Shown: in pieces, positions 29,065-46,388 of the stretch
Layout of the letters: each line of letters opens with the position of its first letter
Position numbering within the stretch: position 1 is the first letter of the stretch
Origin: Sporolactobacillus laevolacticus DSM 442
GTDB lineage: Bacteria; Bacillota; Bacilli; Bacillales; Sporolactobacillaceae
Direction: 5' to 3'
DNA length: 60,252 nucleotides
NCBI RefSeq assembly: GCF_000497245.1
Contig: NZ_AWTC01000021.1
Coordinates: 1-60,252 of the forward strand
Position numbers and translations under genes: made by a program
Notes under the pieces: generated by a model
What the model was told of the DNA's origin: nothing
The model's input: the letters and a program-made list of their open reading frames with translations, nothing else
Database searches by the model: none

Positions 29065-30282
29065 GTGAATTTTCCTTTTAAGCAAGCAGCATGTATTCTT
29101 GATCAATTGATCAGCCATGGCTTTGAAGCTTATGTTGTTGGCGGTGCAGTACGCGATTATTTGCTTGACCGTCCAATTCATGATATTGATGTCGCAACGT
29201 CGGCACATCCTGCTGACGTTGTCTCTTTATTTAAAAGAACCATACCCGTTGGCGTCCAGCACGGCACAGTTGCTGTTTTGTTCGGTGGAAAGCCCTTTGA
29301 AGTTACGACTTTTCGATCGGAGACAGGATACGATGATTTCCGCCATCCGAACAAGGTTGATTTTGTATTGACTCTTGATCAGGATTTGATGCGCCGCGAT
29401 TTCACAATCAATGCACTTGCCATGGATCGAACCGGCAAGATTATCGACTTATTCGAAGGAAGGGCGGATATCGCCCACCGGCAAATTCGGACAGTCGGTC
29501 GCGCAGAGGAACGTATTTCAGAAGATCCTTTACGCATCATGCGTGGCATACGTTTCACATCCGAACTTTGTTTTACACTCGGCAATCAAGAACGTGCTGC
29601 ATTTCTTGAAAAATCTGCGCTTCTGAAAAACATATCGGTTGAGCGCGTCAATCAAGAAATGGTTCGATTGCTTGCTGGTAGAGGAGTACAAGAGGCAATT
29701 GGGATTCTTTTTGAGACAAAATGTATCCATGCATTGCCGCTTCTTGAGAACGCTGAGCTTCATTCCGGGCTATCTGGGGTTCGATTCTCCATCCTTCAAT
29801 CAGTTGAGGAGCGCTGGGCAGCCTTTCTGATCGGGTTGGGCATTAAGAATACGCACGAATTCGCCAAAGCTTGGAAGTGGTCAAGAGAAACTGAAAGAAA
29901 AGTTACCCGGCTGATCGAACTGCAGAACGTCCGCAGATTAGCAGATTGGACGCCTGAATCCGTTTATTTTGCAGGTGAGGATGATGCTAAGGCGGCGGAT
30001 CGTCTGCTTGCCGCAAGTGGAGTTGTGAATGAGGCATATCTTTCTCTATTAGAACAACAAGTGATCGAACTATGGCGCTCCTGTCCAATTCATTCGCGTT
30101 CGGAACTCGCGGCAACCGGGAACCATTTTTTACACTGGTCAGGATTAAAACCTGGGCCATGGCTGGCCAAAGTCATCAGCCAGCTTGAAAAAGATATCGT
30201 GAATGGAAACGTTGAAAATGATTTGGAGGTGATTGAGTCATGGTTCAAAAGATGGCAAATCACTCAAAAAAAGCAATCTTAA
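29065..30282 (+). CDS. cca: CCA-adding tRNA nucleotidyltransferase
   Basis: 405 aa class II nucleotidyltransferase that builds or repairs the 3' CCA of tRNAs. Motifs: YVVGGAVRDYLL, DIDVATSA (catalytic aspartates), RRDFTINALAMD and EDPLRIMRGIRFTSEL. I prefer GTG 29065, eight bases after GGGG, over GTG 29056. The 3' end overlaps birA by 43 bases. Confidence 0.94.
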   Translation: MNFPFKQAACILDQLISHGFEAYVVGGAVRDYLLDRPIHDIDVATSAHPADVVSLFKRTIPVGVQHGTVAVLFGGKPFEVTTFRSETGYDDFRHPNKVDFVLTLDQDLMRRDFTINALAMDRTGKIIDLFEGRADIAHRQIRTVGRAEERISEDPLRIMRGIRFTSELCFTLGNQERAAFLEKSALLKNISVERVNQEMVRLLAGRGVQEAIGILFETKCIHALPLLENAELHSGLSGVRFSILQSVEERWAAFLIGLGIKNTHEFAKAWKWSRETERKVTRLIELQNVRRLADWTPESVYFAGEDDAKAADRLLAASGVVNEAYLSLLEQQVIELWRSCPIHSRSELAATGNHFLHWSGLKPGPWLAKVISQLEKDIVNGNVENDLEVIESWFKRWQITQKKQS

Positions 30283-31235
30283 CGCTACTCTACGAACACA
30301 AAGACCAATTTCTGTCCGGACAAAAAATTTCGGAGCTGATCGGCTGCTCGCGAACAGCGGTTTGGAAACACATTAAAACACTGACTGAAGAAGGCTTTAA
30401 AATCGAGTCCGTCCAGAAAAAAGGCTATAAACTAATGGACGCGCCTGACGGATTAAACGAAGTCTCAGTCTCTGCAGGACTACAAACAAAGACATTGGGA
30501 CGAAAGATCTGTTTTTATGAATCAATGGGTTCGACGCAGAAAGAAGCATTGCGTTTGGCGGACGAGGGTGCTGCTGACGGTACCGTTGTACTGACGAATG
30601 AGCAGACGAACGGACGTGGACGACTCGGACACACGTGGCAATCATATCGTGGTACAAATATTGCCATGAGCCTGATTTTAAGGCCAGATCTACCTATTGA
30701 GAAAACGCCTCAACTCACATTGCTAACAGCGGTTGCAGCAGCTGATACGATTGAAAACGAAACAGGTCTTTCATGTGGCATCAAGTGGCCGAACGACATT
30801 CTATTTGATGGGAAGAAACTCGTCGGTATTTTGACAGAACTTCAGGCGGAAGCCACCTATGTAAAAGCTGTTATTATTGGTATCGGATTTAATGTGAATA
30901 CAGAATCTTCCGCTTTTCCTGAACCGATTAAAAGTGTCGCAGCATCTCTGCGTTCCATTACCGGGAAACAGTATGAACTCGCATCTTTTGTTCAATCTTT
31001 TTTGGCTAAGTTTGAATTCCTTTATGAATTGTATCTTCATAACGGTTTTAAAAGCATCCGTCCGTTGTGGGAACAACGTGCACTGAACCTTGGTAAGCAA
31101 ATCAAAGTTAGGCAGCCGGGCGGAAGGATTCTGGAGGGCTTTGCTCGCGGTATCAATGACGATGGGGTATTGCTGTTGGAAAAGGCGGATGGCACCCCGG
31201 TTCGTGTGTATTCTGCAGACATCGAATGGGAATAA
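30240..31235 (+). CDS. birA: Bifunctional biotin-protein ligase / biotin repressor
   Basis: 331 aa. N-terminal winged HTH (LSGQKISELIGCSRTAVWKHIKTL), central ligase domain with the biotinyl-AMP loop GRGRLGHTW, KWPNDI and the C-terminal SH3-like part (LNLGKQIKVRQPGGRILEG). Attaches biotin to carboxylases and represses biotin genes. ATG 30240 follows GGAGGTG by eight bases and lies inside the cca 3' end. Confidence 0.95.
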   Translation: MVQKMANHSKKAILTLLYEHKDQFLSGQKISELIGCSRTAVWKHIKTLTEEGFKIESVQKKGYKLMDAPDGLNEVSVSAGLQTKTLGRKICFYESMGSTQKEALRLADEGAADGTVVLTNEQTNGRGRLGHTWQSYRGTNIAMSLILRPDLPIEKTPQLTLLTAVAAADTIENETGLSCGIKWPNDILFDGKKLVGILTELQAEATYVKAVIIGIGFNVNTESSAFPEPIKSVAASLRSITGKQYELASFVQSFLAKFEFLYELYLHNGFKSIRPLWEQRALNLGKQIKVRQPGGRILEGFARGINDDGVLLLEKADGTPVRVYSADIEWE

Positions 31236-31280
31236 ACGAAATAATTTAAGTCGTTGACTGACGAAAAAAGGGTCGTCTTT

Positions 31281-31289
31281 TGCTATAAT
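31281..31289 (+). promoter_or_regulatory. Extended -10 promoter of panC-panD
   Basis: TGCTATAAT is a perfect extended -10 (TGnTATAAT). A start point near 31296 would begin the transcript exactly at the first leader hairpin. The -35 region is poor. Confidence 0.6.
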
Positions 31290-31295
31290 GAATTT

Positions 31296-31501
31296 GCCGA
31301 ATGGGTAGGGCTAGGATCTATCGGCTGCATTTCTTTGGAAAGCGGTACGTTGGCCCGGCTATTTACGCAAATCAGATAAAAGTCTGCTATGATCCGGATT
31401 CCGGACATGGACGGAGGAGCGGGCTACACCAAATTTGGGTGAGATGCTCAAATTTGCAGTTCCGTACCCAAACCTCCTCAGGACAAGAGGAGGAACAAGT
31501 G
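31296..31501 (+). ncRNA. Structured panC leader, candidate pan-type riboswitch
   Basis: About 205 nt before panC. Hairpin 1: GCCGA, bulged A31301, TGGGT / ATCTA-TCGGC (31296-31325). Hairpin 2 (31383-31415): TCTG-CTATG, bulged A31392, TCCGG-ATT-CCGGA, CATGG, bulged A31411, CGGA. A long hairpin then pairs GAGGAG (31414-31419) with CTCCTC (31474-31479), with inner pairs GGG(C)TAC/GTACCC and CAAATTTG/CAAATTTG. The same CCTCCTC (31473-31479) can instead pair with the panC Shine-Dalgarno GAGGAGG (31487-31493). Two exclusive folds that hide or expose the ribosome binding site are the layout of a translational riboswitch. Hairpins with bulged adenosines upstream of pantothenate genes are the description of the 'pan' RNA motif; identity is inferred. 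Confidence 0.6.
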
Positions 31502-32392
31502 ATGAAAGTGGCAGTAGCGAAGCGCATGCTTTGCATCTCGTCTCCCGCTGAAATGACGCAATATGTGCGGGAACAGAAGAAACTAGGAAAAACAATAGGA
31601 TTTATTCCAACAATGGGGTATCTCCATGAAGGCCATGCATCGCTCTTTGCAAAAGCGGCTGAGTCGTCGGATTGCGTGATCGCCAGCTGTTTTGTGAACC
31701 CAACGCAGTTTGGTGAGCGAGATGATTACGTTAATTATCCAAAGGACCAGGCGCATGATATTCAACTCGCAGAGAAATCAGGAATTCATGCATTGTTTCT
31801 TCCCTCTGCAGAAACCATCTATCCGAATGGTGAGCAGATCACGGTGAAGGTCAATGCGAAGACCAATGTGCTTTGTGGTAAGAGCCGTCCGGGACATTTT
31901 GACGGAGTGGCTACAGTTCTTACAAAACTTTTTACCATCATCCAGCCTGACCATGTTTATTTTGGCATGAAGGATGCGCAGCAAGTAGCAATTGTAGGCA
32001 GCCTGATCACTTCGTTTCATTTTCCGATTAAGCTGATCGCCTGCCCGATTGTACGTGAAGAAGACGGCCTTGCGAAAAGCTCGCGCAATGTCCGGCTCTC
32101 GTCTCAGGAACGAGCGGAAGCTCCGGAATTATTTAAAGGCCTTCAGAGCGGATTAACAAAACTAAAAACAGGTGAACGTGATTTCGCTCAAGTCATTGAA
32201 ACAGTTGAAACGTACTACAAAACACATCTGAAGCTTGGTATTGTGGATTATGTAGATGTTCTGAATTATCCGGATCTGAAAAGAAACGCCCCGGTGATTA
32301 GTGGCCGGGTGATTATTGCCTGTGCAGTACGATTCGATCAAGCCCGCTTAATCGACAACGTGACAATGGATTGTGAGGTGTCGGCCAAATGA
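31502..32392 (+). CDS. panC: Pantothenate synthetase
   Basis: 296 aa. ATP-dependent condensation of pantoate and beta-alanine to pantothenate. Motifs: [16 protein letters not shown] (ATP-binding HxGH), [36 protein letters not shown] and the KSSRNVRL loop. The reading frame extends 67 codons further upstream, but ATG 31502, nine bases after GAGGAGG, is the family start; the extension is leader RNA. panD overlaps its stop by ATGA. panB, usually next door, is absent. Confidence 0.96.
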
Positions 32393-32772
32393 TGCGTCCC
32401 TTTCTGAGATGTAAAATACATCGGGCAACTGTTACAGATGCTAACTTAAATTATGTGGGAAGCATAACCATCGATGCATCAATTTTGCAAGCTATTGATC
32501 TTCTGCCTTATGAAAAAGTGCAGGTTGTAAATAATAATAACGGTGCCCGTTTGGAAACGTATGTCATTCCAGGCAAACAGGGCTCAGGTGTTATTTGCTT
32601 GAATGGTGCCGCTGCTCGGCTCGCACAAAAGGGCGACATACTGATCATTATGGCTTATGCGTTAATGAATGAAACTGAGTGCAAGAATGTGACACCCGCT
32701 GTTGCTGTTCTTGATCAAAATAATCGGATTGAAAAGCTCCTAAGCGGCGAACAACCGATGCAGATCCTCTAA
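32389..32772 (+). CDS. panD: Aspartate 1-decarboxylase proenzyme
   Basis: 127 aa. Makes beta-alanine from aspartate for pantothenate synthesis. The self-cleavage site Gly-Ser that produces the pyruvoyl group is in NYVGSITID (about residues 21-29); [12 protein letters not shown] before it and [15 protein letters not shown] after it are typical. Two adjacent ATGs (32389 and 32392) are possible starts. Translationally coupled to panC. Confidence 0.96.
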
Positions 32773-43215: not shown

Positions 43216-43368
43216 AGACAAAATCTCCATCTTTTTTTATTAGATTGATACAGTGAATCGAAATCTATACATCTGCGAGACGTGCAGGAGTTGATGAGGA
43301 CATTAGCCTTGCTCAAATGAATATGATGTAGTATGTTTATCTTGTCAAATGAATAATGAATTGTTCGT

Positions 43369-43447
43369 CCACTAGGGGTGCTTCTGCTGAGAGGGACTTG
43401 TCCCGACCCTTGGACCTGATCTGGGTAATACCAGCGTAGGAAAGTGG
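43369..43447 (+). ncRNA. TPP riboswitch (THI element)
   Basis: Contains the hallmarks GGGGTGC, GCTGAGA, GACCCTTGGACCTGATCTGG and TAATACCAGCGTAGGAAA, closed by CCACT/AGTGG. Binds thiamine pyrophosphate and shuts off the ykoEDC operon through the terminator at 43465. Confidence 0.96.
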
Positions 43448-43464
43448 TTATTGTGACTAGGTTC

Positions 43465-43506
43465 ACCGCTTTCTTGTGTCATCATGAAAGCGGTTTTTTA
43501 TTTTTT
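43465..43506 (+). terminator. Riboswitch-controlled terminator
   Basis: ACCGCTTTC pairs with GAAAGCGGT, followed by TTTTTATTTTTT; expression platform of the TPP riboswitch. Confidence 0.88.
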
Positions 43507-43572
43507 CATGTCACCGCCTTTATCAGGTTTCACAGGACAGATAGTTCAAAAAAATGACGAGGGGGAATTGAA

Positions 43573-44166
43573 ATGAGTGAAGGTAAAAAAAGTTTGAAGC
43601 TTAATTTGACCGACATTCTGGTAACGATTGTTATCGCACTTGTATTTGGATTAGTATTTCGTCTGATGGGGCCGGTCTATGATCTTTTGCAGCCGCTGGG
43701 TCTTCATTTAGACGCATTATTGTATGGGATCTGGTTTATTGCGGCACCTTTTGCGGCTCTGCTGATTCGCAAACCAGGCGTTGCATTTATAGCAGAAACA
43801 GCAGCAGCACTTGCTGAAATGCTGTTTGCAGGAAGCGGCGGAGTTGTCAATTTATACTACGGGCTTGTCCAAGGCTTACTCTCAGAAGCAATTTTTGCTG
43901 CATGGCGTTATAAGAAATTTTCGCTAGGTATTGCTTCATTGTCCGCATTTGCTGCTTTGGTTGGTTCGGTGATAATTGATGCATATTACAGTTATTTACC
44001 GATGCTCGCCGGATGGAATCTAACCTTGTATCTCGTATTCCGAGTTCTGGGTGCCATTCTTCTTTCAGGACTGCTTCCGTTTGTTCTCGTTAAAGGATTG
44101 GAAAAAACGGGTGTAACGCAGTCGATCCGTCCAGTCTCCAAGGAAGATTACGATGTCCTCAAATAA
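43573..44166 (+). CDS. ykoE: ECF substrate-binding component YkoE (thiamine precursor)
   Basis: 197 aa, five or six membrane segments. Family blocks GPVYDLLQPLG, ALLYGIWFIAAPFAALLIRKPG and AEMLFAGSGGVVNLYYGLVQG. In B. subtilis YkoEDC-F takes up hydroxymethylpyrimidine-type thiamine precursors. ATG 43573 follows GAGGGGGA. The TPP riboswitch just upstream supports the assignment. ykoF, the thiamine-binding partner, is absent. Confidence 0.93.
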   Translation: MSEGKKSLKLNLTDILVTIVIALVFGLVFRLMGPVYDLLQPLGLHLDALLYGIWFIAAPFAALLIRKPGVAFIAETAAALAEMLFAGSGGVVNLYYGLVQGLLSEAIFAAWRYKKFSLGIASLSAFAALVGSVIIDAYYSYLPMLAGWNLTLYLVFRVLGAILLSGLLPFVLVKGLEKTGVTQSIRPVSKEDYDVLK

Positions 44167-45628
44167 TAAGGAGGAGTGGGGGGTAACGAATCTTCGCCTC
44201 GCTTTTCCTAAAAAGAAGACTATGCATTTTAAAGATCTGTCTTTTCATTATGTGAAAGGAGAAAAGATCTTGCTCCTTGGCCCATCCGGATGCGGTAAAT
44301 CAACGCTCCTGCAAGTGTTGTCCGGTCTTATTCCAAAAAGTGTCGAATTGCCGATGCGAACGGAAAGCCAAGATATTCCTGAAAGCTGGGGATTTATTTT
44401 TCAGGATCCGGAAACGCAATTTTGCATGCCTTATGCAGATGAAGAAATCGCATTTGTTCTCGAAAACAGGAGAACAAAATGTGAGGATATGCCATCGCTC
44501 ATTCAGCACTATTTAGATATGGTGGGATTGAAGCTGGAGAAGAATCACCAGCTGATCCGGACACTATCCGGTGGAATGAAACAACGCCTAGCAGTTGCCA
44601 GTATCCTCGCGTTGGAACCGGAAGTGCTGTTTTTAGATGAGCCAACCGCGCTGCTTGACCCGAAAGGAACCGAGCAGCTCTGGCAAACCGTGCAGCGAAT
44701 CGGAAAAGATCGAACTTTACTCATTGTCGAGCATAAGATCGATCATGTGCTCGATTTTATCGACCGTGTCATTCTGTTTAATCAAAATGGCGAAATCTTT
44801 GCCGATGGGCCCAAGGCAGAAACACTTAGACGCTATCAAGATAAATTGGATGAATTCGGTATTTGGCATCCAGGTATTTGGGACGATTATGAAAAAAATC
44901 ATCCAGGGAATCAGATCACTGCCAATTCAAAAGAGCCAGTGCTGGAACTTGATCATTTTATGGTCATGCGACAAAAAAAGGTGAAATTCACTGCCGACAA
45001 GCTCTGTATTCATCGCGGCGAATGGGTAACTGTGATCGGTGAGAACGGCGCGGGAAAAAGCACGATGATTGAAGGAATAATGAACCTTCTTCGTACAAGG
45101 GGCAAAATCAGATGGGTGTTTGATCATCCTGAGGATCATGTTCAATTTGTGTTTCAGAATCCTGAATACCAGTTCGTTACTGATCAAGTAGACGCTGAAC
45201 TTGGTTTCAGCTTAAAGGTGAACAACCTGACTGAAGAAGAGATCTATAAACGGGTGAATGAACAGCTTCTTCGCTACGCTCTTGAAGAACAAAAGCACCA
45301 GCACCCATTTCAGCTCTCTGTCGGACAAAAAAGACGGCTCAGTGTTGCCTCGGCACTTATTACGTACCCGGATGTATTGATTCTTGATGAACCAACCTAT
45401 GGGCAAGATGCAAGAAATACGTTCGCTCTGCTCGATCTTTTTCAGCAGTTAAGGGAAGAAGGCACAACGATTATTATGGTCACACACGAAATGGAAATCG
45501 TCCGCCATTACGCGACCCGTGTGTTGAAAATTAAAGATGGCCGTATCGTTGATGACTCCGTGAATAACAGTGGGGAGGAGAAGAAGAGTGGACAACGTGT
45601 GGACCAGCACGAACAAATTATTTTTTAA
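44153..45628 (+). CDS. ykoD: ECF ATPase YkoD, two fused ATP-binding domains
   Basis: 491 aa with two ABC domains in one chain. Domain 1: Walker A GPSGCGKST, signature LSGGMKQR, Walker B VLFLDEPTALLD. Domain 2: Walker A GENGAGKST, signature LSVGQKRR, Walker B VLILDEPTYGQD. Powers the thiamine-precursor importer. ATG 44153 follows AAGGAAG and overlaps the ykoE stop by 14 bases. Confidence 0.94.
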   Translation: MSSNNKEEWGVTNLRLAFPKKKTMHFKDLSFHYVKGEKILLLGPSGCGKSTLLQVLSGLIPKSVELPMRTESQDIPESWGFIFQDPETQFCMPYADEEIAFVLENRRTKCEDMPSLIQHYLDMVGLKLEKNHQLIRTLSGGMKQRLAVASILALEPEVLFLDEPTALLDPKGTEQLWQTVQRIGKDRTLLIVEHKIDHVLDFIDRVILFNQNGEIFADGPKAETLRRYQDKLDEFGIWHPGIWDDYEKNHPGNQITANSKEPVLELDHFMVMRQKKVKFTADKLCIHRGEWVTVIGENGAGKSTMIEGIMNLLRTRGKIRWVFDHPEDHVQFVFQNPEYQFVTDQVDAELGFSLKVNNLTEEEIYKRVNEQLLRYALEEQKHQHPFQLSVGQKRRLSVASALITYPDVLILDEPTYGQDARNTFALLDLFQQLREEGTTIIMVTHEMEIVRHYATRVLKIKDGRIVDDSVNNSGEEKKSGQRVDQHEQIIF

Positions 45629-46388
45629 AATCAATCCAAGTCTGAAGTTCGTCATCATCTCGTCATTATTTATTGTCTATCTGTTTGTCCATAATCTGAA
45701 CACGATGATCTGGGCGTCCCTTCTCTTCCTTATTCTTTACTATTTGGTGAGCGGACTAACGGGGAAATGGTCCTTCTGGTTTGTTTTTCTAACATTGATT
45801 GTGTCTTTGTTCAGTGCATCAGCGATGATTATGTTCGGCAAAGGTGATCACATTATTTATCAAAAGTATCTTATTTTAATTACTCAGGAGAGCTTAGCAA
45901 GAGGTATTCTGCTTGGCCTTCGAACCTTTACTTTCAGCCTGGTTGGCATGATCTTTGCGACAACAACGCTTCCTGTACCCTTCTTTTATTCGCTGATGCA
46001 GCAGTTAAAGGTTCCAGTCCGCTACGCATATGGTTGCATGGCCGCATTTCGGATGATTCCGATCATGGCGGAAGAATTGATGCATATCCGCCAGGCGATG
46101 ATTGTCCGCGGCATGGCACGGCAAAAAGGCGCAAAAGCGCTTTATGAGCGAATGAACCGGTACATGTTGACCATGCTGGCGCAATCCATCAGACGCGCGC
46201 AGCGTACAGCAATCGCCATGGAAGCGAAACGCTTTTCAATGACTGAGGAACGCACGTATTATTATGAAATCGGCTGGAGTCGTTACGATCTTTTCTTTGT
46301 CGTCATTATCCTGTTAACCGTCACACTTGGTTTTGTCTGCTCCGCTTATTTCCCACTGACACCGTTCACCAATGTACTGGATCATTGA
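45588..46388 (+). CDS. ykoC: ECF T component YkoC
   Basis: 266 aa membrane coupling protein. Hydrophobic N-terminal half, then the two coupling-helix motifs RQAMIVRGMARQKG and RTAIAMEAKRFSM. I place the start at GTG 45588, seven bases after GGGAGGAG, giving a 41-base overlap with ykoD. Completes the ykoEDC transporter. Confidence 0.92.
   Translation: MDNVWTSTNKLFFKINPSLKFVIISSLFIVYLFVHNLNTMIWASLLFLILYYLVSGLTGKWSFWFVFLTLIVSLFSASAMIMFGKGDHIIYQKYLILITQESLARGILLGLRTFTFSLVGMIFATTTLPVPFFYSLMQQLKVPVRYAYGCMAAFRMIPIMAEELMHIRQAMIVRGMARQKGAKALYERMNRYMLTMLAQSIRRAQRTAIAMEAKRFSMTEERTYYYEIGWSRYDLFFVVIILLTVTLGFVCSAYFPLTPFTNVLDH

Follow-up and report, generated by a model that had tools for sequence, protein, structure and literature searches.

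Genes and features of the panC locus

Within a 60,252-nucleotide (nt) stretch of Sporolactobacillus laevolacticus DSM 442 (contig NZ_AWTC01000021.1; the whole stretch is called the window here), panC is preceded by a leader RNA of about 200 nt that, as read in the sequence, lies between the panC ATG and an upstream gene, which we take from its sequence resemblance to be birA. panC is followed by an overlapping frame that we presume, on the same grounds, to be panD (Table 1), and birA-like frames stand upstream of the leader in relatives too. A previous analysis that used the letters alone (the sequence-only reading) had begun the leader at an extended -10 element; this element is present, and its promoter string TTT-G-[CT]-TATAAT is kept in all 10 aligned leaders of the genus; the transcript is expected to start near 31296. 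A sigma-70 scan did not list the element at 31281-31289. An alternative in-frame panC start is possible at GTG 31499.

A search against all Rfam families (cmscan) matched the leader to the pan motif, RF01749, at 31321-31418 of the + strand with 37.3 bits, barely above the gathering score of 36.2 bits, and this is the sole pan match found in the genome. The sequence-only reading had already named the pan RNA class, known upstream of pantothenate genes, and the covariance search it proposed thus gave this family. The leader has two stems in tandem, with two conserved bulged adenosines apiece, and panC-panD downstream; judged by model match and alignment, it is a genuine member of this known orphan family. 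Eight genomes of the genus have an Rfam pan match, five above the gathering score and three (G014, G015, and G018) below it.

Table 1. Coordinates of the panC leader, its predicted helices and the flanking genes (positions in the window).
Feature	Position	Strand	Basis or remark
birA	30240..31235	+	upstream neighbour, outside the switch
Extended -10, TGcTATAAT	31281..31289	+	TG 31281-31282, TATAAT 31284-31289; read in sequence
Outer stem around hairpin 1, GGGCUAG / UUGGCCC	31308..31356	+	predicted; minimum free energy fold of window copy alone
pan hairpin 1	31322..31349	+	bulged A31329, A31347; RF01749 and genus alignment
pan hairpin 2	31383..31415	+	bulged A31392, A31411; RF01749 and genus alignment
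S strand, GAGGAG	31414..31419	+	3' base of hairpin 2 and anti-anti-Shine-Dalgarno; pairs with 31474-31479
Distal P3, GGG(C)UAC 31421-31427 with GUACCC 31464-31469	31421..31469	+	fold and genus alignment
X strand, CCUCCUC	31473..31479	+	partner of S (P3) or of Shine-Dalgarno (P4)
P4 loop, AGGACAA	31480..31486	+	between anti-Shine-Dalgarno and Shine-Dalgarno; alignment
panC Shine-Dalgarno, GAGGAGG	31487..31493	+	8 nt before ATG 31502; closed in P4
panC, pantoate-beta-alanine ligase	31502..32392	+	PF02569, E 4.3e-93
panD, aspartate decarboxylase (presumed)	32389..32772	+	overlaps panC stop; served as panD query

Both pan hairpins are well conserved among the 10 genus leaders. In hairpin 1, 96.4% of alignment cells are paired and three pairs have changed on both sides; in hairpin 2 the values are 99.1% and two pairs, and all four bulged adenosines are invariant (10/10). 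Taken together (97.7% of cells paired, covariation score 0.257), the paired fraction and the covariation score were each reached by 0/500 shuffled alignments and the five pairs changed on both sides were matched by 18/500, counts that, like those for P3 and P4 below, are not probabilities and come from shuffles that do not keep relatedness. Hairpin 2 is the one that the sequence-only reading had drawn with its two bulged adenosines; the earlier hairpin of that reading, with A31301 bulged, was discarded, since hairpin 1 lies, by Rfam as well as by the genus alignment, at the position given in Table 1, with A31301 outside and other adenosines bulged. The RNA as a whole (31296-31520) folds with a z-score of -3.58, and 0/200 dinucleotide shuffles fold as well.

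Two exclusive folds around the panC Shine-Dalgarno sequence

The strings named in the sequence-only reading (GAGGAG, CCTCCTC, GGG(C)TAC/GTACCC, CAAATTTG, and the ribosome binding site GAGGAGG) are all in place, and X has two pairings to choose from. In P3, S (31414-31419 and 31421-31427) pairs with X (31474-31479 and 31464-31469); in P4, X (31473-31479) pairs with the Shine-Dalgarno (SD) sequence (31487-31493). An inner hairpin, AAAUUUG, lies within distal P3, with CAAATTTG at 31430-31437 and 31449-31456. Since distal P3 can coexist with P4 in the folds of order leaders, the GAGG end is what must choose. The putative sensor had been linked to the switch through bases 31414-31415, and this link is borne out within the genus: both bases are common to hairpin 2 and S, their pairs C31384-G31414 and U31383-A31415 are invariant (10/10), and the S:X pairing recurs in the order.

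Within the genus, the covariation score of P3 was reached by 1/500 shuffles and its paired fraction (81.2% of cells) by 0/500. In its distal part, which differs in shape between subgroups of the genus, 77.2% of cells are paired and 5/6 pairs have changed on both sides. P4 has 94.3% of its cells paired, and in its loop GAC (31482-31484) and A31485 are invariant (10/10). The loop sequence AGGACAA recalls the GGAC of the pan hairpins, and we found no role for it.

For a growing transcript that ends at 31480 or 31486, folding predicted P3 and an open base of hairpin 2; for one that reaches 31493, with the SD transcribed, it predicted P4. In the free ensemble the panC SD is paired with a predicted probability near 1. 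As far as a comparison of relatives can tell, a two-fold switch upstream of panC is supported.

The S:X helix across Bacillales

Rfam pan matches were found in 319/397 genomes of the order. We sampled 94 loci, comprising 16 from the family, the 30 best-scoring (several of them from one genus), and 48 chosen, as far as possible, to represent other genera. For L016, L044, and L122 the starts were set by eye, as were the pan 3' anchors in L090, L119, and L120. After leaving out L087 and L099 (no start found) and L122 (a direct form, described below), 91 leaders were scored, taking as the S:X duplex the 18 nt after hairpin 2 against the 33 nt before the SD.

The mean duplex energy of own S:X pairs was -15.9 kcal/mol versus -11.8 for re-paired leaders, with 0/10,000 re-pairings as good (n=91), and -8.7 for dinucleotide-shuffled linkers, where these were long enough. 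The signal persisted with distinct S strands only (n=81; 0/10,000) and without the fixed GAGG/CCUC core (distal part, 88 leaders; z -13.8, 0/10,000). The controls gave z -1.6 with X reversed, -0.4 when an upstream stretch was used (49 leaders), and -1.0 when the pan linker replaced S. Complementarity between X and the SD of at least five Watson-Crick pairs was present in 63/91 leaders (16.8 expected; no more than 26 in any of 200 shuffle sets) and exceeded that of re-paired leaders (z -4.5, 0/10,000). In ensemble folds, 75 of the 83 order leaders from outside the genus had X:SD (at least three expected pairs) and 60 had S:X (at least five).

The S:X helix lies outside the RF01749 model (92 positions), which ends before it, and the literature passages on the pan motif available to us contained no description of it. 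If an anti-anti-SD class is defined as S pairing with X next to the SD, with covariation, the 91 order leaders show all of this and the genus shows it by three of five measures.

Terminators and direct architectures

A terminator-like hairpin is present in 78/83 order leaders outside Sporolactobacillus, versus 0/8 Sporolactobacillus leaders when the limit is set at -5 kcal/mol; one of the eight falls just short, at -4.9. Termination was rejected for the window leader, where the scans found no intrinsic terminator. A first scan with other limits (72/91 leaders at -7 kcal/mol or better) has been superseded. The Sporolactobacillus pan RNA is thus a terminator-less variant, in genomes without detected panB.

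The 5' arm of the order terminators (T) is complementary to S (-12.8 versus -7.6 kcal/mol for shuffled arms). Outside Bacillales, we anchored 108/123 loci (15 were dropped) and scored 104, four having no start codon. Among these 104, a terminator was found in 88, S:T covariation was clear (0/10,000; reversed control 5,883/10,000), and S:X was present (-9.6 versus -8.5, 0/10,000) and weaker than in the order. These figures replace an earlier run with a poor pan 3' anchor (63 kept, 58 scored; S:X z -3.0, 21/10,000; S:T on 50, 0/10,000). Judged by complementarity, S thus has three possible partners, since besides X it could pair with hairpin 2 at its base or with the terminator arm.

In some loci the motif stands directly before a gene: panB in L122 and L099, and a PanT-like gene in L236, L239, and L240. 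In these direct forms the pan 3' tail (GGAGGG, AAGGAG, or GGGAGG) stands as the SD, an arrangement that favors the reading of a formed hairpin 2 as the OFF state. The three PanT-like genes have no ATG, GTG, or TTG in the usual place; an ATA or ATT 8 nt after the SD is a possible rare start codon.

Gene contexts of pan RNAs in the phylum

The phylum search found pan RNAs in 152/398 genomes. We read the contexts downstream of 128 pan loci over 1.6 to 3.4 kb each, a set that covers part of the loci of the 152 genomes, omits weak unlisted ones, and includes five from Bacillales; as 29 loci were read for only about 1.6 kb, distal genes are undercounted. Genes for the supply of coenzyme A (CoA), counted by tblastn with reference proteins, lie downstream of 127/128 loci. 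The synthesis genes are panC (90), panB (78), panD (78), and a panG-like gene for a DUF2520 protein (75), which we take to be PanG. Uptake and kinase genes comprise a PanT-like energy-coupling factor (ECF) S component (11), coaX (8), panS (6), an OPT transporter (3), and coaW (3), so that a pantothenate kinase is downstream in 11 loci; birA (17) and bioY (4) are biotin-related neighbors. At 14/128 loci the stretch read holds no pantothenate synthesis gene, just genes for uptake or a kinase, or birA. In four genomes (G412, G788, G597, and G776), one pan copy precedes pantothenate synthesis genes and another precedes uptake and kinase genes.

Example proteins were compared with hidden Markov models. 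The type III pantothenate kinase (coaX) scored above its cut-off; the type II kinase (coaW), a partial protein, reached 233.8 against a cut-off of 234, and PanS 300.6 against 400. OPT, BioY, ECF_trnsprt, and DUF2520 were above their Pfam cut-offs, and the OPT example, on a cut copy, was below the NCBIfam cut-offs. A profile of eight S components had 4rfs_S (2.4e-11) and 6zg3_C (4.8e-6) as its best PDB matches, both of which we take to be pantothenate ECF transporters.

Two kinds of locus deserve separate mention. In L171, L175, and L224, the operon behind the pan RNA combines a type II pantothenate kinase with a transporter of the OPT family. Yeast Opt1 is reported to import CoA precursors (PMC12406275), and the OPT-coaW operons can therefore be read as precursor salvage, which makes their transporters candidate bacterial importers of CoA precursors. 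The sole locus of the 128 where no CoA-supply gene was found is L160; here pan precedes an 86-amino acid zinc-ribbon-like frame with two CxxC/CxxH-like pairs, and the opposite strand holds frames that are presumably thiolase-like and enoyl-CoA hydratase-like.

Distribution of pan, panC, and panB in the family

Across the 26 family genomes, the Rfam search found pan at E <= 0.001 in 16, above the cut-off in 12. panC is present in 10/15 Sporolactobacillus genomes, eight of which have an Rfam pan match; the leaders of the other two (G013 and G017) also have pan when aligned, and the five genomes without panC have no Rfam pan match. panB (PF02548) was above the cut-off in 0/15 Sporolactobacillus genomes, three of which have weak partial matches below it, and in 9/11 other genomes of the family. 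Within the genus, therefore, pan tracks panC (10/10 versus 0/5) and not panB. In another family genome (L051 in G003), panB and panC occur without a pan match; the birA-like and panB frames are nearly joined there and leave no room for a pan leader.

Gut bacteria with PanC and PanD and without pantoate synthesis have been described, and panD-panC-panS operons are known as pantoate salvage (PMC6593275). By analogy, Sporolactobacillus may be in the same situation as these gut bacteria. A PanS-like protein was not accepted as proof of pantoate import in the genus: NF047939 matches 15/15 genomes, all below its cut-off, and matches B. subtilis too. Ketopantoate reductase-like domains (PF08546; four to seven per Sporolactobacillus genome) were uninformative.

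A proposed CoA-supply switch and its alternatives

Weinberg et al. (2010) found the pan motif and gave panB, panC, and aspartate decarboxylase as genes of its operons (PMC2864571); RNA-seq studies of B. amyloliquefaciens (PMC4634765) and B. methanolicus (PMC4342826) also list it. No pan ligand and no CoA riboswitch turned up in the literature, which is weak evidence of absence as mainly open-licence papers were searched, and this agrees with the remark of the sequence-only reading that the ligand is not firmly established.

Building on the observed RNA class, conserved pairings, covariation, and gene contexts, we propose that the leader is probably a translational pan switch over panC-panD, in a genus where no panB was detected, that is OFF when CoA or a late precursor is abundant. 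The sensor would be the two tandem hairpins with their four bulged adenosines. When S pairs with X, the panC ribosome binding site would be free; when hairpin 2 is held shut to its base, S would lose its end, X would take the ribosome binding site, and panC would not be translated. In most of the relatives read, S would also pair with the 5' arm of the terminator, so that antitermination would come first and opening of the ribosome binding site second. An effector holding hairpin 2 shut would then end transcription in step one and close the SD in step two, both OFF, and Sporolactobacillus would show only this second step, SD closure.

The abundance of CoA or a late CoA precursor is the signal we propose, because pan RNAs precede synthesis genes as well as genes for pantoate/pantothenate uptake and type II/III pantothenate kinases. 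If uptake and kinase are turned off together, a signal that arises after the kinase fits, and pantothenate or pantoate fits least. CoA would most simply be this signal, with phosphopantetheine, or a protein reporting either compound, as further candidates, and the contexts suggest that the pan family guards the CoA supply.

Several points weigh against this proposal. The OFF direction and the CoA signal are drawn from architecture and gene content, and we likewise infer the order of events and whether RNA or protein does the sensing. The nearest-neighbor model favors the closed state of the window copy by about 10 kcal/mol (-79.9 versus -69.5). P3 may therefore form only in passing while the RNA is being transcribed, or need help, and this predicted equilibrium preference argues against a simple two-state switch in the window copy. 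The folding model does not predict the open state as the default in the 83 order leaders from outside the genus either. Changes on both sides of P3 were matched by 81/500 shuffles and further pair types by 384/500, so that two of five measures are not beyond shuffles, and P4 shows no significant covariation within the genus (58/500 as good). The sequence-only reading had posited two exclusive pairings of CCTCCTC and looked to relatives for compensatory changes: both pairings exist, and such changes are found in both pan hairpins and, by three of the five measures, in P3, whereas P4 is kept without significant covariation. In the order, S:T co-varies weakly (re-paired leaders -12.45, 78/10,000 as good); with own and re-paired energies nearly equal, S:T is conserved there more than it co-varies. 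Finally, with birA and bioY beside pan RNAs, a link to biotin is conceivable.

The same birA genes bear on the alternative that survives best, with close to an even chance of being right: a dimeric RNA-binding protein that signals how much pantothenate or CoA there is would land on the pan hairpins, no metabolite would bind the RNA, and the downstream switch would be the same. The birA product is a dimeric regulator, and many of the loci read have birA next to the pan RNA. We know of no protein that binds the pan hairpins and made no search for one. PanB is unlikely to be that protein in Sporolactobacillus, and we set it aside for the genus, given that panB is above the cut-off in none of the 15 genomes while the RNA is kept in every panC-bearing one. 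The hairpins themselves are small and simple, and those who described this small tandem motif suggested a dimeric protein site (PMC2864571), which speaks for such a protein and against sensing by the RNA.

Whether RNA or protein senses, the signal itself could be pantoate or pantothenate instead of CoA or a late precursor, which we consider unlikely. The commonest downstream genes do make pantothenate, and the genus lacking panB keeps the RNA before panC, whose enzyme uses pantoate; against this, a pantothenate kinase lies downstream in 11 loci, 14 have no synthesis gene in the stretch read, and an OFF switch answering to pantothenate would shut its own consuming enzyme. A stronger form of the CoA proposal, to which we assign a low probability, sees in pan RNAs the CoA riboswitch class that has been missing, binding CoA or 4'-phosphopantetheine directly. 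They would then shut all entries to CoA: pantothenate synthesis, import of pantoate/pantothenate, OPT-mediated precursor import, and kinases without CoA feedback. Riboswitch reviews remark on the conspicuous absence of CoA among the ligands (PMC9971707, PMC10043782). It is very improbable that the distal helices of the window copy merely shield or stabilize the mRNA or are remains of a lost terminator, with no regulated switch: the eight scanned genus leaders without a terminator and the strongly favored closed state would fit this, but the hairpins, and P3 by some measures, still co-vary in the genus, and pan is kept in the 10 panC-bearing genomes and unmatched in the five without panC.

The regulon of the proposed CoA-supply switch is the larger result, as it makes the pan ligand question directly testable. 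Its breadth, the absence of a detected panB, and the terminators of most relatives had not been anticipated by the sequence-only reading. If one RNA class governs pantothenate synthesis, uptake, and phosphorylation, CoA or a late precursor is the likeliest signal, which leaves a short list of compounds; the long-range S:X helix defines exact mutations, and the Sporolactobacillus copy, in a genus where panB was not found, speaks against PanB as the sensor.

Other features of the window

A terminator-like hairpin at 31260-31281 follows birA directly ahead of the panC promoter. The leader is entirely open in the panC phase (frame 31301-32392, 363 amino acids from ATG 31301), which we take as chance because the leader is conserved as RNA. 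The cmscan search also found a thiamine pyrophosphate (TPP) riboswitch, RF00059, at 43364-43459 (75.7 bits); the operon behind it, in a region that with the riboswitch spans 43364-46388, presumably encodes a thiamine-precursor ECF transporter.

Comparison with known systems

The panC leader resembles the described pan motif RF01749 in its tandem stems with bulged adenosines upstream of pan genes; it differs in that the eight genus leaders have no terminator and panB was not found in the genus. Uptake and kinase genes, which we see among the targets, go unmentioned in the passage describing the motif (PMC2864571). The TPP riboswitch of the window is likewise a cis-acting vitamin leader, but it belongs to another Rfam family and has a known ligand. 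The B. subtilis trp leader under TRAP, which we take to combine a terminator with an SD-closing hairpin, is alike in that a single sensor controls termination as well as access of the ribosome; it differs from pan, whose S strand has three possible partners. The guanidine-II riboswitch has two small hairpins and, compared by description only, shares with pan the use of small paired hairpins as a sensor.
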